From a virus, in the IMG/VR virus record IMGVR_UViG_3300009684_000157, positions 1 through 25,673 of that record: DNA of 25,673 nt. One strand, given 5' to 3'. Both the position numbers and the translations under genes were made by a program. The number at the start of each line of letters is the position of its first letter. The stretch's first letter is position 1. Positions 3,683 through 25,673 of this stretch are shown piece by piece. Under the pieces are notes generated by a model, which made no database searches, was not told the DNA's origin, and saw only the letters and a program-made list of their open reading frames with translations.

Positions 3683-5035
3683 ATGTTAGCTGAAGAACTA
3701 TCTAAGAAGTGGCAACCAATTCTGGAACATCCAGACCTTAGCCCAATTAAGGACTTGCATCGTCGTAACGTAACTGCTGCTCTTCTTGAGAACACAGTTG
3801 CATCACTACGCACAACCGCTGCCCATAACCAATTCATGCTTTCCGAAGCATCACCAGTCAACTCAATGGGTGCTTCTTCATCCACTGCTGGTGACGGTTC
3901 TATCGACACATTCGATCCCGTACTTATCTCTCTCGTTCGTCGTGCAATGCCTAACCTAATGGCATATGACATTTGCGGTGTTCAGCAGATGACTGGTCCT
4001 ACTGGTCTCATTTTCGCAATGAGAGCACGTTATGCTAATCAGACTAGCGATGAAACATTCTACAACGAAGTAAATACTGCCTTCTCAACTATCGTTGCTG
4101 GCAATAGCACATTCGGTCAGGGTGGTTCTGGTGCTAATAACTCCATTCCCGGCCAGACTAATACTACTGCAATGGTTAACACTGCATTCTATAACACTGG
4201 CACAGGTCTTTCAACAGCTTCTGCTGAAGCACTTGGTTCAAATTCCACTCTTGTATTCCCAGAAATGGCATTCTCAATTGAGAAGCTTTCAGTAACTGCT
4301 AAGACACGTGCTCTTAAGGCAGAATACTCAATGGAACTTGCACAGGACCTTAAGGCTATTCACGGTCTTGATGCTGAAACTGAACTTTCAAACATCCTTT
4401 CCTCTGAAATTCTTGCAGAAATTAACCGTGAAGTTATCCGTACTATCAACATCACTGCTAAGGTTGGTGCTGCTGAAGGTACTACAACTGCTGGTATTTT
4501 CGATCTTGACACCGACTCAAATGGTCGTTGGTCAGTTGAAAAGTTCAAGGGTCTTATGTTCCAGTTAGAACGTGAAGCTAACCGTATTGCTCGTGAAACT
4601 CGTCGTGGCAAGGGTAACATTGTTATCTGTTCTTCAGACGTTGCTTCTGCTCTACAGATGGCTGGTGTACTTGACTACGCTCCTGCTCTTAACTCAAACA
4701 ACCTACAGGTTGACGATACTGGTAACACTTTCGCTGGTGTTCTTAATGGTCGTCTACGTGTTTATATCGATCCATACGCAATCGGTGGTAACTATCTAAC
4801 TGTTGGTTATAAGGGTTCATCAGCATTCGATGCTGGTCTATTCTATTGCCCATACGTTCCTCTACAGATGGTACGTGCAGTTGATCAGAACACCTTCCAG
4901 CCAAAAATCGGCTTCAAGACTCGTTACGGAATGGTTGCAAACCCATTCGCAGAAGGTCTTACTGCTGGTAATGGTGCTCTTACTACTAACACCAACGTTT
5001 ATTATCGTAAGGTTCTCGTTACAAACCTTATGTAA
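3683..5035 (+). CDS. gp23: Major capsid protein gp23
   Basis: Main head subunit with an HK97-type fold, 450 aa. The N-terminal ~55 residues form the assembly-dependent delta region. The gp21 protease should cut within FMLSEASPVN, between Glu55 and Ala56, which fits the known (Leu/Ile)-x-Glu cleavage rule. Downstream are recognisable T4 gp23 landmarks: LVRRAMPNLMAYDICGVQQM, MTGPTGLIFAMRARY, the conserved helix carrying ALKAEYSMELAQDLKAIHGL, and the C-terminal FQPKIGFKTRYGMVANPF. The coding sequence is richer in AAG, AAC and GGT codons than neighbouring accessory genes, typical of a highly expressed gene. Start ATG follows AAAGGAG; a strong terminator follows the stop. No gp24 vertex paralogue follows, unlike T4. 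Confidence 0.97.
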   Translation: MLAEELSKKWQPILEHPDLSPIKDLHRRNVTAALLENTVASLRTTAAHNQFMLSEASPVNSMGASSSTAGDGSIDTFDPVLISLVRRAMPNLMAYDICGVQQMTGPTGLIFAMRARYANQTSDETFYNEVNTAFSTIVAGNSTFGQGGSGANNSIPGQTNTTAMVNTAFYNTGTGLSTASAEALGSNSTLVFPEMAFSIEKLSVTAKTRALKAEYSMELAQDLKAIHGLDAETELSNILSSEILAEINREVIRTINITAKVGAAEGTTTAGIFDLDTDSNGRWSVEKFKGLMFQLEREANRIARETRRGKGNIVICSSDVASALQMAGVLDYAPALNSNNLQVDDTGNTFAGVLNGRLRVYIDPYAIGGNYLTVGYKGSSAFDAGLFYCPYVPLQMVRAVDQNTFQPKIGFKTRYGMVANPFAEGLTAGNGALTTNTNVYYRKVLVTNLM

Positions 5036-6618: not shown

Positions 6619-8072
6619 TGGACACAGTTTTAATAAAAAAACATAATGAGACGCATAACAGAATTATTTGTGATTCAGGCGTAGCTCAAGAAATCTCAGA
6701 GTATTTTACTTTTTATGTACCCGGTTACAAATTTATGCCATCCTACAAAAACAAAATGTGGGATGGCAAAATTCGTTTGTTCAATACTGGGAATGGATTA
6801 TTATATGGTGGTCTCATTTCTTATGTTCAAAACTTTTGTCAAGAAAGAAACTATGAAATAACTTATGATGGTGATTTTGCTGATTCTGAATGTTCAGTAA
6901 AGGAAACTGAAGAATTCATTTCATCATTAAAATTACCAGAAAAATTCATACCTAGAGATTATCAGATCGATGCATTCATACATGCAGTACGTAAACGCAG
7001 ATCATTATTATTATCACCAACTGCATCTGGTAAATCATTCATCATCTATCTATTAGTGAGATACTATGCGGCTCGTACTCTTATTATTGTGCCAACTACT
7101 TCTCTTGTTAGTCAGCTTGCCAGTGACTTTGCTGACTATGGGTTTTCTTCTGATGAATTCGTTCATCGTATCTTTTCAAGACAAGATAAACAAACGAATA
7201 AACCTATCACAATCTCCACATGGCAATCCATATATAAAATGGACAAAAAATATTTCGAACAGTTTGATTTGGTAATAGGCGACGAAGCTCATTTATTTAA
7301 AGCAAAGTCTTTAATGACTATAATGGACAAGTTGTCAGAATGCAAGCATCGTTTTGGATTTACTGGTACTTTAGATGGTACACAAACACACCGCCTAGTG
7401 TTGGAAGGATTGTTTGGTGCAGTCAAGAAGGTTACCACAACTGCTGAATTAATTCAACAGAAACATCTCGCTGATTTTAATATCAAAGCAATTATTTTAT
7501 CATACAGTGATGAATTGAGAAAAGTTTATTGCAAAGCATTGTATCAAGATGAGATGGATTTCCTTGTCAGACATGAAGCAAGAAATAAATTTATCAAAAA
7601 TCTTGTTTTATCATTGAAAGGAAATACTTTACTTTTGTTTCAGTATGTTGACAAACATGGAAAAGTGTTGTATGATCTTATTAAGGATGAAACAGGCGAT
7701 AGAAAAGTATATTTTATTTCTGGTAAAATAGACGGCGAAGATCGTGAAAATATTCGTAAAGTCGTAGAAACAGAAGAAAATTCTATCATCGTTGCATCAT
7801 ATGGTACATTTTCGACTGGTGTCAATATCAAAAATTTACACAACGTAATTTTTGCTTCGCCATCTAAATCTCGTGTCAGAAACTTACAATCTATTGGCCG
7901 TGGTCTTCGTAAGTCAGAGACCAAAGTCGCATCCACATTGTATGATATATCAGATGATCTTTCATGGAAGTCTGCTAAAAATCATACAATCCTCCATTTC
8001 GTTGAAAGGATGAAAGTCTACAACGAAGAAAAATTCGATTATAAAATTTATAATGTAACATTAAAGGATTAA
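6618..8072 (+). CDS. uvsW: RNA-DNA and DNA helicase UvsW
   Basis: Superfamily 2 helicase of 484 aa, related to T4 UvsW, which unwinds R-loops, drives branch migration and replication fork regression, and shifts replication from origin-dependent to recombination-dependent mode. Seen motifs: Walker A SPTASGKS (around residues 133-140), Ia PTTSLVSQ, motif II DEAH (residues 222-225), motif III FTGTLDG, motif V VASYGTFSTGVNIKNL and motif VI QSIGRGLRKS. The N-terminal ~90 residues (GYKFMPSYKNKMWDGKIRLF) form the small substrate-binding domain typical of UvsW. It is cotranscribed with uvsY, with overlapping stop and start. Confidence 0.95.
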   Translation: MDTVLIKKHNETHNRIICDSGVAQEISEYFTFYVPGYKFMPSYKNKMWDGKIRLFNTGNGLLYGGLISYVQNFCQERNYEITYDGDFADSECSVKETEEFISSLKLPEKFIPRDYQIDAFIHAVRKRRSLLLSPTASGKSFIIYLLVRYYAARTLIIVPTTSLVSQLASDFADYGFSSDEFVHRIFSRQDKQTNKPITISTWQSIYKMDKKYFEQFDLVIGDEAHLFKAKSLMTIMDKLSECKHRFGFTGTLDGTQTHRLVLEGLFGAVKKVTTTAELIQQKHLADFNIKAIILSYSDELRKVYCKALYQDEMDFLVRHEARNKFIKNLVLSLKGNTLLLFQYVDKHGKVLYDLIKDETGDRKVYFISGKIDGEDRENIRKVVETEENSIIVASYGTFSTGVNIKNLHNVIFASPSKSRVRNLQSIGRGLRKSETKVASTLYDISDDLSWKSAKNHTILHFVERMKVYNEEKFDYKIYNVTLKD

Positions 8073-19450: not shown

Positions 19451-19906
19451 ATGCTTAAGACTACATCATTACCCAAGAAGTCTAAAGCTGATAAGCCCAA
19501 GAAGCAGGGGGTCTCTACTGATCCTCTGTTTCAGTATATTAAGGCTGTATCACAGACCAAGGAATATTTACTCAACACTTCTTTATCAGAGAAGGATTAT
19601 CTACCGTTCATGGTGAACCGTGGTCTTTCTTATTTCCCTGACACTATTATGCTTGTCAATCAGATGAATATAAATTGTCATCTATCCAAGAAGATGCAGC
19701 ATGATTATTATTATGTTGCGGTTCGTCCTCGTGCTCGTTATTCTAAATGGTTTAAAGCTGACCAAGCTTCTTACACAGATTTTTCTGTAATTAAGGAATA
19801 CTATAAATACAATGATCAGAAAACTTCAGATGCATTACGCATTCTTTCTGATGATCAAATTAATGATATAAGAAAAAAATTAGAAAAAGGTGGTCAGTAT
19901 GGATAA
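19451..19906 (+). CDS. gp62: Clamp loader small subunit gp62
   Basis: A 151-residue protein in the gp62 slot between gp44 and regA. It has a Lys-rich N-terminus and family-like blocks: DPLFQYIKAVSQTKEYLLN, LPFMVNRGLSYFPDTIMLVN and YYYVAVRPRARYSKW. gp62 completes the clamp-loader pentamer with four gp44 subunits and lacks ATPase motifs, as here. It is somewhat shorter than T4 gp62 (187 aa). The start is ATG 19451 after AAGGG; the upstream in-frame GTG at 19427 lies inside gp44. The end overlaps regA by 8 bases. Confidence 0.9.
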   Translation: MLKTTSLPKKSKADKPKKQGVSTDPLFQYIKAVSQTKEYLLNTSLSEKDYLPFMVNRGLSYFPDTIMLVNQMNINCHLSKKMQHDYYYVAVRPRARYSKWFKADQASYTDFSVIKEYYKYNDQKTSDALRILSDDQINDIRKKLEKGGQYG

Positions 19907-20297
19907 TCTAAGTTCTTTGATAGAGGTAAAGATTGGTGAACAGGAAGATTTTCTGAAGGTCAAAGAAACCCTCACACGCATTGGTGTAGCATCTCGCAAG
20001 GATCACAAGCTATATCAATCATGTCATATTTTACATAAGCAGGGACAATATTATATTGTTCATTTCAAAGAGATGTTTATGTTAGATGGTAAGCCATCCA
20101 ATTTCTCTGATGAAGATTTGGGTCGCCGTAATAAAATTGCATGTCTTTTGGAGGATTGGGGTCTTTTAAAGATTATTGATCGTGAGTCGATTGAGAATGC
20201 TCAGGGACCGATGAGTCAGATCAAGATCATCAATCACAAAGAGAAGTCTGAGTGGGAACTTGTAGCCAAGTATAATATAGGCAAGCGCAAGCAATGA
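19899..20297 (+). CDS. regA: Translational repressor RegA
   Basis: A 132-residue RNA-binding protein that represses translation of early phage mRNAs by covering their start regions. The match to T4 RegA is strong: EDFLKVKETLTRIGVA, the hallmark LYQSCHILHKQGQYYIVHFK, KEMFMLDGK, and ACLLEDWGLLKIID. T4 RegA is 122 aa; this copy has about ten extra residues. ATG 19899 is chosen over GTG 19890 because AAAGG precedes it and the former is within gp62's ribosome-accessible end. Its own operon (gp45-gp44-gp62) is the classical regulatory target. Confidence 0.95.
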   Translation: MDNLSSLIEVKIGEQEDFLKVKETLTRIGVASRKDHKLYQSCHILHKQGQYYIVHFKEMFMLDGKPSNFSDEDLGRRNKIACLLEDWGLLKIIDRESIENAQGPMSQIKIINHKEKSEWELVAKYNIGKRKQ

Positions 20298-20494: not shown

Positions 20495-20687
20495 AAAACT
20501 AGAGAATTTTGTAGCTGCTTTGGATCGCATGATGGAATCGTCAGAGATGATGTTCATGGAAAAATATAATTGTAATTACAGAGAGTACAATACGATCAAG
20601 CAACACAAGTATGATCCAGCTAGAGAAGAGTTAATTAAATCGCTCACTGAGTTATTAGACCTTGGTGGATTTAGCAGACCAAGTTGA
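20481..20687 (+). CDS. Small hypothetical helical protein
   Basis: A 68-residue, mostly helical, Met- and Glu-rich protein (KLENFVAALDRMMESSEMMF) without a known domain. AGGA lies just upstream of the ATG, which overlaps the preceding gene by 14 bases. Its last 33 bases overlap the 3' end of the leftward ribbon-helix-helix gene, marking the switch of transcription direction. It may be a degenerate or fast-evolving early gene. Confidence 0.55.
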   Translation: MKSSEKLENFVAALDRMMESSEMMFMEKYNCNYREYNTIKQHKYDPAREELIKSLTELLDLGGFSRPS

Positions 20688-20903
20688 CAGGAGAGTATCG
20701 ATATTTTGATCGATTCTAGTATTTCTATTTCTTAAATATTCTGCAATGGCCTCTCTGATAATTTCAGAGGGGTCTTTATTTATTGAGTCGGCATAATCGA
20801 ATAATCTATCTCTAAGTGAGACGGAACATCGAAAGCTTGTGATTCTATTTTCCATACCAATCTTATTGATATAGACGGCGGATGTATCCGGGTGGTTAGC
20901 CAT
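20655..20903 (-). CDS. Ribbon-helix-helix DNA-binding protein
   Basis: An 82-residue protein with a Arc/MetJ/CopG-type ribbon-helix-helix domain: strand ITSFRCSVSL, helix A RDRLFDYADSIN, turn KDPSE, helix B IIREAIAEYLRNR. Such proteins dimerise and bind short inverted repeats, usually to repress their own operon. Fourth and last gene of a leftward operon, it overlaps the gene before it by 8 bases. I start at ATG 20903 (MANHPD) rather than 20963, which lies inside the previous gene. The three dyads at the operon promoter (21701-21760) are natural candidate operators. The last 33 bases overlap a convergent gene. Confidence 0.75.
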   Translation of the reverse strand: MANHPDTSAVYINKIGMENRITSFRCSVSLRDRLFDYADSINKDPSEIIREAIAEYLRNRNTRIDQNIDTLLSTWSAKSTKV

Positions 20904-21207
20904 TTTTATTATTTCTTTTTTTACTATGAATGAGGGCAGCGAGTTGTCTATCTGCTTTATCATCTGATATTTTATCGACTAGTCTATCACCAATAGTATA
21001 GAAGAGCATAGCTGTTTCTTTATCACCAAGACCTTGTACATATAAGTCTTGTGTGACTGCTTGAATAGCACCAAGGATCAACAATACGTTTTTAGGTCCA
21101 GACCCATAATCAGATGATTCCATCTCCATGAGATAAGCTTCAATCATTTGATGGATATCAGACCTAACGTTTTTAACAATAAACTTTTGCAATTCATTTT
21201 CTGTCAT
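20896..21207 (-). CDS. Hypothetical early protein (leftward operon)
   Basis: A 103-residue, mostly helical protein without a recognised domain. N-terminal helices include FIVKNVRSDIHQMIEAYLME; the middle GPKNVLLILGAIQAVTQDLY is moderately hydrophobic but has polar breaks and is probably not a membrane span; the C-terminus is Lys/Asn-rich (HSKKRNNKNG). AAGGAA lies before the ATG, 9 bases after the upstream stop, and the gene overlaps the ribbon-helix-helix gene by 8 bases. Confidence 0.65.
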   Translation of the reverse strand: MTENELQKFIVKNVRSDIHQMIEAYLMEMESSDYGSGPKNVLLILGAIQAVTQDLYVQGLGDKETAMLFYTIGDRLVDKISDDKADRQLAALIHSKKRNNKNG

Positions 21208-21809: not shown

Positions 21810-22079
21810 TTAACCTGCGAGCTTTTCATCTGCCAAGGCACGATAACCAGCAGCAATAACTTCACGAGTGGGAAAAACTAGTGCATACTTGCACTTTACC
21901 CTACCCTTGGTATCAATTGCTTCGTAACTTTCAATAGGATAACCATGAACCATACGAAGCCGTGCTACTGCTGACCTAGTAGACTCTGGTGATGCAAAGC
22001 CATACCGCTGGATAGCTTGCTTAGTAGTGATATGATTGCCCTCAAGAAGAGCATCAAGAAACTTTTCAGTCTTTGTCAT
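21810..22079 (-). CDS. Winged-helix / helix-turn-helix DNA-binding protein
   Basis: An 89-residue basic protein. The N-terminal helix KTEKFLDALLEG is followed by HITTKQAIQRYG and ESTRSAVARLRMVHGYPIES, a helix-turn-helix with the recognition helix around SPESTRSAVARLR, then a two-stranded wing (YEAIDTKGRVKCKYALVF). This pattern is common in small phage regulators. It is transcribed alone, with its own terminator. AAAGGAG lies 11 bases before the ATG, and its untranslated leader would contain the 9-bp array. It is a candidate regulator of the signal-dense region to its right. Confidence 0.72.
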   Translation of the reverse strand: MTKTEKFLDALLEGNHITTKQAIQRYGFASPESTRSAVARLRMVHGYPIESYEAIDTKGRVKCKYALVFPTREVIAAGYRALADEKLAG

Positions 22080-22095
22080 AATATATTACTCCTTT

Positions 22096-22181
22096 GTCAC
22101 CATAGTGACCATGTGAACCATTGATACCTTAGTAACCTTGTCAACCTTCGGTACCTTACTGACCTTAGTGACCCTCTGACC
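22096..22181. repeat. 9-bp-period degenerate array, copy 1
   Basis: ACC recurs at 22099, 22108, 22117, 22126, 22135, 22144, 22153, 22162 and 22171, exactly every nine bases, then at 22179 after an 8-base step. The unit is NNN-ACC-WTN with consensus NNNACCTTR. On the leftward transcript it reads YAAGGTNNN. It lies between a leftward -35 box (22219) and the winged-helix gene. Confidence 0.85.
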
Positions 22182-22195
22182 TTCACTGTATTCAT

Positions 22196-22224
22196 ACCTT
22201 ACGCTATACCCATTAGCATGTCAA
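22196..22224 (-). promoter_or_regulatory. Possible leftward promoter next to the 9-bp array
   Basis: Leftward TTGACA (complement of 22219-22224), 17 bases, TAAGGT (complement of 22196-22201), where the -10-like box is itself an array-type ACCTTA. The -10 is poor, so this is tentative. The same geometry occurs at the second array. Confidence 0.3.
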
Positions 22225-22319: not shown

Positions 22320-22328
22320 TGTGGATAA
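22320..22328 (-). other. DnaA-box sequence
   Basis: TTATCCACA on the complementary strand, an exact match to the consensus DnaA box, located between two divergent -35 boxes and beside AT-rich sequence. A single box can occur by chance. Confidence 0.45.
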
Positions 22329-22670: not shown

Positions 22671-22707
22671 CAGAAAAATGCTTGATCACGAATTATTACA
22701 AAATATT

Positions 22708-22828
22708 ACTGTGGTATTTTTGTCACTGTGACATTTTTGCAACTGTGGTATTTTTATCACTGTGGTATTTTTGCAACAGTTGCATTTCCGCAACACTGTG
22801 ACAAATATGTCACTGTTGCAGATTTATC
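22708..22828. repeat. 17-bp tandem array (iteron-like)
   Basis: Units start at 22708, 22725, 22742, 22759, 22776, 22793 and 22812; six are 17 bases and one is 19. Unit example: ACTGTGGTATTTTTGTC. The variable ends create palindromic junctions such as GTCACTGTGAC and GCAACAGTTGC. Suited to cooperative protein binding, as in operators or origin iterons. Confidence 0.85.
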
Positions 22829-22853
22829 ACAGACAGATATATGCCGAATCACC

Positions 22854-23038: not shown

Positions 23039-23066
23039 AGTATAGCATACTGGTTGAGCAGGTCAA
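23039..23066 (-). promoter_or_regulatory. Leftward promoter of divergent module A
   Basis: TTGACC (complement of 23061-23066), 16 bases, TATACT (complement of 23039-23044). Its -35 lies inside the 38-base duplicated core. A start near 23032 and an eight-T run at 22978-22985 after a short stem would give a ~55-base RNA. Confidence 0.5.
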
Positions 23067-23093
23067 GCACAAAATAAATTATTTTTATAAAAA
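23056..23093. repeat. 38-bp exact direct repeat, copy A (divergent promoter core)
   Basis: Begins GAGCAGGTCAAGCAC and continues as an A/T-only stretch, identical to 23888-23925. In both copies the repeat starts 44 bases before the rightward -35. The A/T stretch lies where UP elements act, between two outward-facing promoters. Confidence 0.9.
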
Positions 23094-23099
23094 AAACGA

Positions 23100-23127
23100 T
23101 TGACAGGGCCGTCGATTGCTTTATATT
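23100..23127 (+). promoter_or_regulatory. Early cassette promoter 1
   Basis: TTGACA, 16 bases, TATATT (23122-23127), then the leader word GTCATAGGC, AAACGGAGAG and ATG at 23156. First of the series of similar cassette promoters. Confidence 0.8.
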
Positions 23128-23389: not shown

Positions 23390-23414
23390 GAATCATAGAC
23401 AACGGAGCAAGCAA

Positions 23415-23681
23415 ATGTCTTCATCCATTTCCTTCACGCAAAACGGTGGCGCATCTTATACTGGTGCAGAGGCAGTCGATGTGTTTCGTATCAAATGCAT
23501 CGTACAGGGTCTAAAAGCCGCCAAGATTGGCATGATGCTGACTCGTGGTGCTACCCCAGCCAAAATGCTGGCAATGGCGTCCAGCTATACCGGCATCAAG
23601 TATAAGCGTGGTGCGTATGATTTGGCAATTGCTGATTTGATTGAATTGGCAATTCCTCGTGAACAGGCACTTATGAAGTAA
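23415..23681 (+). CDS. Small early protein, cassette 2
   Basis: An 88-residue protein without a recognised family: a Ser/Gly-rich start (MSSSISFTQNGGASYTGAEA), then helices VFRIKCIVQGLKAAKIGMML, ATPAKMLAMASS and YDLAIADLIELAIP. I start at ATG 23415 after GGAG. An in-frame ATG at 23388 lies inside the promoter -10 box and would not be transcribed. An inverted repeat follows eight bases after the stop. Confidence 0.72.
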   Translation: MSSSISFTQNGGASYTGAEAVDVFRIKCIVQGLKAAKIGMMLTRGATPAKMLAMASSYTGIKYKRGAYDLAIADLIELAIPREQALMK

Positions 23682-23688
23682 AAATAAA

Positions 23689-23721
23689 ATGGGGTCAATC
23701 AAAAATAATGGTTGACCCCAT
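23689..23721. repeat. 10-bp inverted repeat containing a -35 box
   Basis: ATGGGGTCAA, 13-base spacer, TTGACCCCAT. The right arm contains the -35 of the promoter at 23712 and the left arm its mirror image. No T-run follows, so it looks more like an operator or paired -35 boxes than a terminator. Confidence 0.75.
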
Positions 23722-23870: not shown

Positions 23871-23898
23871 ACAATACCACATCTGTCGAGCAGGTCAA
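23871..23898 (-). promoter_or_regulatory. Leftward promoter of divergent module B
   Basis: TTGACC (complement of 23893-23898), 16 bases, TATTGT (complement of 23871-23876). Same geometry as module A. A start near 23864 and a seven-T run at 23804-23810 would give a ~60-base RNA. Confidence 0.45.
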
Positions 23899-23925
23899 GC
23901 ACAAAATAAATTATTTTTATAAAAA
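23888..23925. repeat. 38-bp exact direct repeat, copy B (divergent promoter core)
   Basis: Identical to 23056-23093. Flanking sequence is diverged on both sides, although outward promoters are kept at equal distances, with 33 bases between the two -35 boxes in each copy. Confidence 0.9.
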
Positions 23926-23931
23926 TAATGC

Positions 23932-23960
23932 TTGCAATGGTTTGTTCGATGGTCTATATT
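23932..23960 (+). promoter_or_regulatory. Early cassette promoter 3
   Basis: TTGCAA, 17 bases, TATATT (23955-23960), then TTCATAGGCAACGGAGC and ATG at 23987. Slightly weaker -35 than its siblings but with the same leader. Confidence 0.7.
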
Positions 23961-23986
23961 CTGTTCATAGGCAACGGAGCAAGCAC

Positions 23987-24247
23987 ATGGCAAATGGTGG
24001 CGGTTCTACTATCACGATCAAGAAACTGATCTGGTCTAAGGCATTCAATAGGGGCTTCAAGGAAGTCCGTGAAGGCATTCCGCTGAATTATGATGCATAT
24101 GGTATTGATGAATCATCACAGTGGAACTATGAGCGTGGTAGACAGTTTGCACTGGAATATGAGGGCAAACTAAAGTATGGTAAAGAAGTAAACGTATCGG
24201 CAATATATAGGTTTGCTGATTCATGGCAATCTAGAGCTATTATTTGA
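23987..24247 (+). CDS. Small early protein, cassette 3
   Basis: An 86-residue protein of unknown function: MANGGGSTITIKKLIWSKAF, then RGFKEVREGIPLNYDAYGID, and a helix NYERGRQFALEYEG with the Y-E-x-G-R-Q-F pattern often seen in small phage proteins of the host-takeover class. The start follows ACGGAGCAAGCAC; an in-frame ATG at 23942 lies within the promoter. A perfect leftward promoter at 24261-24289 points back into its 3' end, so antisense RNA is possible. Confidence 0.75.
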   Translation: MANGGGSTITIKKLIWSKAFNRGFKEVREGIPLNYDAYGIDESSQWNYERGRQFALEYEGKLKYGKEVNVSAIYRFADSWQSRAII

Positions 24248-24260
24248 TTGTCATACTTCT

Positions 24261-24289
24261 ATTATACCACAACAAAAAATCATGTCAAC
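24261..24289 (-). promoter_or_regulatory. Perfect-consensus leftward promoter, antisense to cassette 3
   Basis: TTGACA (complement of 24284-24289), 16 bases, TATAAT (complement of 24261-24266). Transcription would begin near 24254 and run antisense through the 23987 gene. No leftward gene is seen there. Confidence 0.6.
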
Positions 24290-24319
24290 AACAAAATAAT
24301 AAAAATAGTTGTTGACATG
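24281..24319. repeat. 12-bp perfect inverted repeat joining two divergent promoters
   Basis: CATGTCAACAAC, 15-base A/T spacer, GTTGTTGACATG. Each arm supplies the -35 box of one outward promoter, so the arms could be a shared operator as well as twin promoters. Confidence 0.88.
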
Positions 24320-24339
24320 GTACTCTGATATGGTAATAT
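24312..24339 (+). promoter_or_regulatory. Early cassette promoter 4
   Basis: TTGACA, 16 bases, TAATAT (24334-24339), then GAATCGTAGACAACGG, AGCAAGCAC and ATG 24365. Confidence 0.82.
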
Positions 24340-24364
24340 GAATCGTAGACAACGGAGCAAGCAC

Positions 24365-24667
24365 ATGGCCAAATACATCAAAGCGATTGACGTGTGGGAT
24401 TATTCTGATGCTATCATGTCGGGGCAGATCAAGCTTCAGACAGGACAGTGGGTTAAGCTAGGTAAAGACAATAAGAAACTGTCACGATTCCATCATGCGA
24501 ATCGGTTTCATATCACTGCGTTTCATTATCCGAATCATATCAAGCAGTTTAATGAATACGCAAAAACCCAACAAAAAGAAAAAATTATCACAGCAATGCA
24601 AAAACTGCTTGCATCCATCCAAGAATATGATAATATGAAGCATAGGAAAAACGGAGCAAGCACATGA
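24365..24667 (+). CDS. Small early protein, cassette 4
   Basis: A 100-residue protein. The first ~60 residues (KYIKAIDVWDYSDAIMSGQI, KLQTGQWVKLG, SRFHHANRFHITAFHYPNHI) look like a small beta domain. The C-terminus is a Lys/Gln-rich helix. No family is assigned, though the LQTGQWVKLG and HH patterns recur in alphaproteobacterial phage early genes as far as I recall. ATG 24365 follows ACGGAG. The gene's 3' end contains the promoter and ribosome site of the next gene, which starts at its stop (ATGA). Confidence 0.75.
   Translation: MAKYIKAIDVWDYSDAIMSGQIKLQTGQWVKLGKDNKKLSRFHHANRFHITAFHYPNHIKQFNEYAKTQQKEKIITAMQKLLASIQEYDNMKHRKNGAST
24609..24636 (+). promoter_or_regulatory. Early cassette promoter 5, inside the upstream gene
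   Basis: TTGCAT, 16 bases, TAATAT (24631-24636), then GAAGCATAGG, AAAAACGGAGCAAGCAC and ATG 24664. The whole module is embedded in the last codons of cassette 4. Confidence 0.68.
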
Positions 24668-24825
24668 CAAACGAATGGGGCCGTTATACTCTCACAGTTT
24701 CCAAGGATGGTGAAGTCATCATCATCAAGGAATACACTGGTATGTCTGGCACTGCTATGATGGATGAGGCATATAGCTATCGTCTGGAATATCCTGCCTC
24801 TGATGGTTACTCTGTGGATTGGTGA
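24664..24825 (+). CDS. Small early protein, cassette 5
   Basis: A 53-residue protein: MTNEWGRYTLTVSKDGEVII, IKEYTGMSGTAMMDEAYSYR, ending in SVDW. Two or three strands followed by a helix are likely; no family recognised. Its start overlaps the stop of cassette 4 (ATGA) and follows the conserved ACGGAGCAAGCAC leader. With the next gene it forms a two-gene unit. Confidence 0.72.
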   Translation: MTNEWGRYTLTVSKDGEVIIIKEYTGMSGTAMMDEAYSYRLEYPASDGYSVDW

Positions 24826-25005: not shown

Positions 25006-25030
25006 GAATCATAGACAACGGAGCAACACA

Positions 25031-25225
25031 ATGCATACCACTCTTGAAGATGCTATCGAATTGGTTCTGGCTCTCGCTCGCCAGAATATTGATCTAACAG
25101 ATTCATTTGATCCTACACTAGAGAAGTGTAAGGATGCTTGTGATGTTCTGGAAGATTTTATGACAAAGTATCTCTATGAAGATGCTGCTGCTGAACATGA
25201 ATATAATCAGCAGTTTATGACATAA
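25031..25225 (+). CDS. Small early protein, cassette 6
   Basis: A 64-residue acidic helical protein (TLEDAIELVLALARQNIDLT, then LEKCKDACDVLEDFMTKYLY and an Ala/Glu-rich end). Family unknown. ATG 25031 is chosen because it lies behind the cassette leader; longer in-frame starts at 24953 and within the promoter would not be on this transcript. The 9-bp-period array begins eight bases after the stop. Confidence 0.75.
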   Translation: MHTTLEDAIELVLALARQNIDLTDSFDPTLEKCKDACDVLEDFMTKYLYEDAAAEHEYNQQFMT

Positions 25226-25232
25226 TAGGTCA

Positions 25233-25334
25233 ACCTTACTGACCTATAACACCTTGGTTGCCTTGGTTACCCTCTTAACCTTGGCAACCTTGGTGACCCT
25301 CTACACCTTGTTAACCTTAACACCTTACCTGACC
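25233..25334. repeat. 9-bp-period degenerate array, copy 2
   Basis: ACC (once GCC, at 25260) recurs at 25233, 25242, 25251, 25260, 25269, 25278, 25287, 25296, 25305 and 25314, exactly every nine bases, then at 25322 and 25332. The consensus NNNACCTTR is the same as in copy 1, three kilobases away. It separates cassettes 6 and 7. Confidence 0.88.
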
Positions 25335-25350
25335 CATGACAAAATAACTA

Positions 25351-25378
25351 TTGACATGGCTCTATAATGTGTTAATAT
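25351..25378 (+). promoter_or_regulatory. Early cassette promoter 7
   Basis: TTGACA, 16 bases, TAATAT (25373-25378), then AAACGGAGAAATGTAATG with the gene start at 25408. The leader is a diverged version of the cassette leader. Confidence 0.8.
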
Positions 25379-25407
25379 ATAATAGTTAAATGAAACGGAG
25401 AAATGTA

Positions 25408-25673
25408 ATGGGAACTCGTGCTGTTTTCACGTTCCAAGACGAACGTGAATCATATTCTGTATATAAGCATTGGGATGGATATGAAGAAGGAGCATGTGTT
25501 TTTATTGTGAATGCAATCCCATATTCATGGGGAATGCATCGATATGAAGCATGTGATTTTGCTGCTGCATTTGTTGCAGCTAATAAGAAAGCCGGTGGTG
25601 ATGTTTATTTCTCTAAGGGACATCAAGATCATGGTGATCTAGAATATTTCTATGAACTCATGAAAGCACCGAA
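25408..25673 (+). CDS. Conserved phage protein, N-terminal part (runs off the window)
   Basis: At least 88 residues; the frame is still open at the window end. It begins MGTRAVFTFQDERESYSVYK and continues HWDGYEEGA, NAIPYSWGMHRYEACDFAAA, FVAANKKAGGDVY and HGDLEYFYEL. Proteins with this MGTR...YKHWDGYPEG pattern are widespread among phages and some bacteria as conserved hypotheticals; I know of no assigned function. Start ATG follows ACGGAG. An early promoter precedes it. Confidence 0.82.
   Translation, partial: MGTRAVFTFQDERESYSVYKHWDGYEEGACVFIVNAIPYSWGMHRYEACDFAAAFVAANKKAGGDVYFSKGHQDHGDLEYFYELMKAP

Follow-up and report, generated by a model that had tools for sequence, protein, structure and literature searches.

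Why should a short DNA word recur at a constant pitch in the gaps between early phage genes while the bases that separate its copies vary from unit to unit, and what might such rows of words do? The question is posed by two arrays in an IMG/VR contig of 25,673 nt, which was analysed in its entirety and is referred to here as the window. The phage is a T4-like myovirus whose matches to cultured-phage DNA are limited to the major capsid and gp55 genes (72-90%, in marine Synechococcus phages and one marine virus), and whose RegA reaches at most 66% identity among the cultured phages listed. The early region, to the right of regA, is made up of a leftward operon running from 22079 to 20655, then a divergent gap of 1 kb and a set of small rightward genes, most of which are preceded by a repeated promoter-leader module, TTGACA-N16-TAATAT / ACGGAGCAAGCACATG (Table 1). 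Array 1 is flanked by the start codon of the winged-helix gene that heads the operon and by a candidate leftward promoter, whose -10 hexamer is poor and overlaps an AAGGT word. Array 2 begins 7 nt past the stop codon of one small rightward gene and stops 16 nt short of the -35 box in the early promoter that follows, itself one among several such modules in the region. An earlier note on this DNA, made from the letters alone, had placed both arrays in gaps adjoining early genes, and that placement is borne out.

Table 1. Features of the window and arrays of the related phage (locus L488)
Feature	Position	Strand	Description
regA	19890-20297		early region to its right
Ribbon-helix-helix (RHH) repressor-like protein	20655..20963	-	102 aa; PHROG 876/7325/6506; last gene of leftward operon
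Winged helix-turn-helix protein	21810..22079	-	89 aa; PHROG 4973; first gene of leftward operon
GGA of Shine-Dalgarno AAAGGAG, gene 21810-22079	22090..22095	-	one further 9-nt step from array 1
Array 1	22099..22173	-	nine ACC on + strand at exact 9-nt spacing (22099, 22108, 22117, 22126, 22135, 22144, 22153, 22162, 22171); - strand is the sense strand of the adjacent operon, with AAGGT/ATGGT units
Candidate leftward promoter	22196..22224	-	TTGACA (22224-22219), 17 nt, TAAGGT (22201-22196); consensus match only
Second TTGACA-N17-TAGAGT	22308-22280		consensus match only
DnaA box TTATCCACA	22320-22328	-	only perfect DnaA box in window
17-bp repeat array	22704-22830		five copies (ACTGTGGTATTTTTGTC and variants); same divergent gap as array 1
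ACGGAGcAAgcacATG-type leaders	23393-23422, 23965-23994, 24343-24372, 24642-24671, 25009-25038, 25386-25415		window
PeSL-like stem-loops	23050-23105, 23689-23721, 23885-23937, 24265-24335, 25337-25358		clearest at 24281-24319
Small early gene directly upstream of array 2	25031..25225	+	
Array 2	25233..25334	+	each 9 nt from 25233 to 25314: ACC at 25233, 25242, 25251, GCC at 25260, ACC at 25269, 25278, 25287, 25296, 25305, 25314; then irregular ACC at 25322, 25327, 25332
Hairpin within array 2	25250..25295	+	CACC tt GGTTGCC tt GGTTA (loop CCCTCT) TAACC tt GGCAACC tt GGTG
Early-type promoter of gene 25408-	25351..25378	+	TTGACA, 16 nt, TAATAT; directly downstream of array 2
Early gene downstream of array 2	25408..25671	+	PHROG 1987; runs off contig
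Array B	L488 4105-4180		nine ACCTT, spacing 8,8,8,9,9,10,9,10
Array C	L488 7041-7076		spacing 10,10,11
Array D	L488 7507		short

The nine successive ACC trinucleotides that the earlier note had described in array 1 are exact in their 9-nt period. Past its last unit the register slips to 22179 (8 nt) and 22196 (17 nt), both of them outlying ACCTT words. For array 2, the claim of ten ACC without a slip was slightly overstated, the row consisting of nine ACC and one GCC and breaking after 25314. Both arrays are real and far beyond chance: equally periodic ACC runs, which would have pointed the other way, did not appear in 100 dinucleotide shuffles of the whole window, where the longest run at lag 9 was three. 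The two arrays also hold 14 of the 24 ACCTT words in the window. Neighbouring units compared at lag 9 are 82-95% identical in their first five bases and 16-28% identical, equivalent to random, in their last four, so that the unit is best written as ACCTT followed by about four free bases. The NNNACCTTR unit proposed earlier, with a freely varying triplet, stands insofar as neighbours are random at lag 9; ACCTT NNNN fits better, and the triplets are not wholly independent, since a weak 27-nt superperiod is present (variable-base identity at lag 27 of 0.50 in array 1 and 0.36 in array 2). It points to the copying of some units in groups of three. With the core kept while its flanks are random, the further claim that the arrays are not products of ordinary tandem duplication agrees with the data.

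A search with the RHH-like gene recovered one syntenic relative, contig G021 (loci L451 and L488; L452, 99.99% identical, is the same phage as L451). Common to it and the window are regA (84%), the RHH-like gene (77%) and the winged-helix gene (48%), as well as three of the early genes in the right half. As the earlier note had predicted for relatives, an array with changed flanks is present at an equivalent intergenic site: ahead of the same winged-helix gene and in the same orientation as array 1, L451 carries an ACCTT cluster, array A (ACCTTtgg ACCTTtag ACCTTtga ACCTTaca, then more ACCTT at 6-33 nt; spacing 8, 8, 8, 12, 6, 6, 14 nt). The rest of the L451 gap has no significant nucleotide similarity to that of the window (best E 0.049). 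The relative carries arrays B, C and D elsewhere, and has none at the array-2 position or ahead of its homologue of gene 25408-25671. Over the six arrays of these two diverged phages, 44 sites collected with the pattern RCCYT have A at the first position in 40 and T at the fourth in 40, with random flanks, and in all six arrays ACCTT lies on the regA-sense strand in a single orientation. By comparison of the two sequences, then, the word, its site and its orientation are conserved and the 9-nt phase is not. The suggestion that the arrays were selected for spacing consequently fails, as the relative spaces its words at 6-14 nt, mostly 8 to 11, and the exact 9-nt phase belongs to the window genome only. 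AAGGT words at L451 10352-10370 were set aside as part of an ERLERL coding stretch. Locus L488 holds other repeats as well, namely a non-coding short-word array of GGGTCCCAT and variants at 7540-7700 and CGAATGTCAACT...GCCATAA repeats at 4540-4840, in the long non-coding stretch past array B.

How widely such arrays are distributed was assessed in several collections. Flanking-gene searches yielded about 120 related loci, and no period-9 array of the window kind was found in non-coding DNA near 118 homologue-bearing loci; a scan of the non-coding stretches of about 130 relative loci at lags 5-30 showed no array as strong at lag 9 apart from the two in the window. A whole-contig search of 49 contigs found AAGGT triples only in the window and G021/G022. 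In an unbiased scan for clustered pentamers (135 loci, 1.58 Mb), AAGGT/ACCTT was the strongest cluster and the sole one in these two genomes, the few other clustered pentamers (GGTGA, GAAGT/AAGTA, TCTGG) all lying in other contigs. The remaining related contigs that were searched had no comparable ACCTT cluster, nor did the region ahead of the winged-helix gene in about 89 relatives; in the 300 nt upstream of that gene, AAGGT occurs 7 times in the window, 9 times in L451 and 0-2 times in the array-less relatives. Pattern scans of IMG/VR and GTDB returned no free-triplet arrays in non-coding DNA, yielding collagen-like genes or ordinary 9-bp repeats instead. Tandem 9-bp ACCTTANNN arrays with mostly identical triplets are frequent in bacteria, notably Bacteroidales, for example ACCTTAAAG (L359-L438, GTDB). 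Cultured-phage DNA gave no credible similarity to the arrays, Rfam no credible match, and cyanophages only isolated AAGGT triples at roughly the control rate. Loci L346-L348 and L342-L345 were not useful as relatives.

A pentamer repeated directly 4-10 times, mostly 8-11 nt apart, in early-region gaps is a pattern like that of sites for an oligomerising protein, and the arrays are probably multi-copy docking sites for a regulatory protein made by the phage. The more specific proposal, that they are multi-copy head-to-tail DNA sites for a small phage regulator, most likely the winged-helix protein, is the explanation we favour, though tentatively and at somewhat below an even chance. One protomer would dock on each ACCTT(NNNN) unit, and cooperative binding over 8-10 units would coat the gap and control the neighbouring early promoters; through array 1 the winged-helix product would regulate the operon that encodes it, and through array 2 it would reach a second early module. 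Protein binding, the identity of the binder, action on DNA rather than RNA and a regulatory effect are all elements that we infer.

The winged-helix protein is favoured as the candidate binder, and the RHH-like protein of the same operon is the second choice. Among the homologues of the winged-helix protein, 28 of 31 match PF14090 HTH_39, and its AlphaFold model (pLDDT 85) has a helix-helix-helix-wing-helix order, with best PDB matches that are weak and dominated by winged-helix regulators. A profile search of the PDB gave no significant match, Pfam no MerR/BldC match, and Pfam, NCBIfam and PHROGs no match to the Xis/Cox family. An insertion around the recognition helix, FAS[PS]ES[TV]RSAV, is present in both array-bearing phages and missing from nearly all array-less homologues (L157 and L158 have part of it). 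The RHH-like protein matches its PHROGs at E 1e-5 to 1e-3 and Pfam RHH_1 below the cut-off, and its AF2 model shows a strand-helix-helix order at low confidence (pLDDT 57). Its gene is present in the contigs that carry arrays and uncommon otherwise (5 of 49 contigs); the nearest RHH homologue outside the clade (L453) lies on a 14-kb contig without ACCTT arrays. Only two independent phages bear arrays and they are close kin, so that co-occurrence with either protein may reflect shared descent. Other features also count against operator sites: the relative, at 6-14 nt, spaces its words less strictly than expected of a rigid filament, two of its arrays (B and C) have no obvious promoter beside them, the single orientation of the six arrays is not required of operators, and the hairpin of array 2 is left unexplained.

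Several characterized systems suggest, by analogy, that the arrays belong to a known kind, the tandem direct-repeat regulatory sites. BldC of Streptomyces binds head-to-tail on direct repeats, AATTXXXX(C), at 9 bp per protomer (PMC5859096). The likeness extends to a small winged-helix protein (here a candidate binder), to one-orientation direct repeats in variable number at promoters, to a unit made of a short fixed core plus free bases (ACCTTNNNN here), and to a pitch of 9 nt in the window and mostly 8-11 nt in the relative over several units. However, the phage protein is of the HTH_39 type and not MerR-like, the motif is unrelated, and the spacing drifts to 8-11 nt in the relative. Similarly, the Apl protein of phage 186 occupies seven direct repeats, spaced by 10-11 bp, between the early promoters pR and pL, and both Apl and P2 Cox are small phage winged-helix proteins that coat rows of direct repeats at or between early promoters and repress them (PMC7498355); they differ in the 10-11 bp spacing, in their double role with a tyrosine integrase, an enzyme not identified in the present contig, which is a fragment, and in having no sequence-family match to the phage protein. 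The omega RHH repressor (ParB) of pSM19035 binds 7-10 contiguous non-palindromic repeats that overlap promoters (PMC9499535), and here a putative RHH gene lies in the adjacent operon. The omega repeats are contiguous 7-bp units of mixed orientation, whereas those described here are spaced by 8-11 nt in a single orientation, and the RHH match is weaker.

A serious rival, which we nonetheless consider unlikely, places the function in the rightward transcript, where ACCUU words would form regularly spaced C residues in G-poor RNA directly past stop codons and serve as Rho-utilisation (rut) sites, or as targets of a phage RNA-binding protein, that end or insulate early transcripts. Rut sites span about 78 nt, with more C than G and spaced C (PMC6407284), and the arrays resemble them in length (about 80-110 nt), in C over G and in regular C after stop codons on the rightward strand (PMC6407284, PMC9160355). 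On that strand arrays 1, 2, A and B have about two C for each G, whereas G outnumbers C overall; when 78-nt windows are ranked by C minus G, the window arrays come within the highest 0.1-0.3%, and array B scores highest in its locus. As RNA, arrays A and B are unstructured; arrays 2, B and C open at or close to the stop codon of a rightward gene, and one orientation is common to all six arrays. It may also speak for such a role that psbA was not found in 12 related contigs, one of them 173 kb, so that a cyanobacterial host, of a group that generally lacks Rho, is not indicated. Yet Rho needs only YC dimers, while A1 and T4T5 of the pentamer are kept too, the spacing is 9 nt as against the 11-13 nt used by RhoTermPredict (PMC6407284), no rightward gene terminates at arrays 1 and A, which stand before the first gene of a leftward operon, and array 2 is strongly folded. 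Its hairpin, with helices of 4, 7 and 5 bp separated by symmetric TT/TT internal loops, gives an MFE of -34.5 for the RNA of 25228-25340 (z = -8.2); on + strand RNA or DNA the z scores are -8.2 and -6.4, and 0 of 500 column shuffles fold equally well. Folding in arrays 1, A, B and C does not exceed chance, and the hairpin was rejected as a general array function. Pairing in trans of array 1 RNA (AAGGU) with array 2 RNA (ACCUU) was also discarded, column- and order-shuffled arrays being as good in 36/300 and 151/300 cases. A second element at the RNA level, the Shine-Dalgarno-like AAGG ladder of the earlier note acting in a 5' leader, is highly improbable: array 1 does run in phase into the AAAGGAG of the leftward gene, but in L451 the cluster is followed by 23 nt and then by the -35 box of the predicted promoter, so that it would lie outside that mRNA, and on the transcripts of the genes at arrays 2, B and C the word is ACCUU.

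Alternatives at the DNA level appear less probable still than rut-type sites. A tandem operator array for the RHH repressor, comparable to MetJ boxes or omega heptads, is improbable. It would accord with the presence of the gene in array-bearing contigs and its rarity outside them and with the omega precedent, but a homologue 51-55% identical resides on a 14-kb contig (G023/L490) with no ACCTT cluster, a contig that is perhaps too short, and 9 nt in the window versus 6-14 nt in the relative is a poor fit to rigid RHH arrays. The sub-threshold Pfam score and the low pLDDT noted above weaken the assignment itself. We regard as very improbable a neutral 9-bp minisatellite or a remnant of collagen-like (Gly-X-Y) coding sequence. 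In its favour, bacteria and phages often carry tandem 9-bp repeats that contain ACCTTA, the - strand units read GGT NNN YAA, and there is the weak superperiod; against it, neighbouring units agree in 16-28% of their variable bases at lag 9, where other ACCTTA arrays mostly reach 60-100%, and the core is kept at the same site of a diverged relative despite different spacing. Multiple in-frame stops interrupt the Gly-X-Y (GGT) frame of both arrays, the TLx frame has stops in array 1 and the KVx frame in array 2, and a coding origin was rejected. Replication-origin iterons are scarcely probable, since ACCTT arrays occur at several places per genome beyond the divergent gap and no iteron-binding initiator was identified, even with the only perfect DnaA box of the window and the 17-bp repeat array both in the 1-kb gap beside array 1.

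To return to head-to-tail operators for the winged-helix protein, their boldest form would be a T4-like clade in which oriented ACCTT arrays, spread genome-wide at early-gene junctions, nucleate a winged-helix filament, with the pentamer fixed and the pitch drifting over 8-11 nt. We judge this distinctly unlikely; if true, a kind of repressor or insulator described until now in temperate phages and actinobacteria would be present in a T4-like phage. More generally, should either the winged-helix or the RHH protein coat the arrays, the head-to-tail operator principle seen with Xis/Cox/Apl and BldC would extend to a T4-like phage, whereas arrays acting as RNA would be unusually regular sites of the terminator type. 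Either way, the arrays flag regulatory junctions in uncultured phages. Early gene control is little known beyond a few model T4-like phages, and the arrays offer a clade-specific sequence tag, two candidate proteins and the prediction that the core matters while spacing can drift.

The early region contains further repeated elements. Six early genes begin with a repeated leader around ACGGAGcAAgcacATG, a dispersed promoter/ribosome-binding-site cassette. Several early promoters lie in PeSL-like promoter/stem-loop cassettes with the -35 box in the 3' arm of the stem and its complement in the 5' arm. The PeSL cassettes of T4-like phages are likewise stem-loops beside early promoters in a hypervariable early region, comparable to the window gaps with their -35-containing hairpins, but they are promoter-terminator stem-loops and not rows of pentamers (cited in PMC4503421). 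The 17-bp repeats of the divergent gap fold strongly on both strands (z -5.8 / -4.2), and together with the adjacent DnaA box in this AT-rich gap they may mark an origin-like region.
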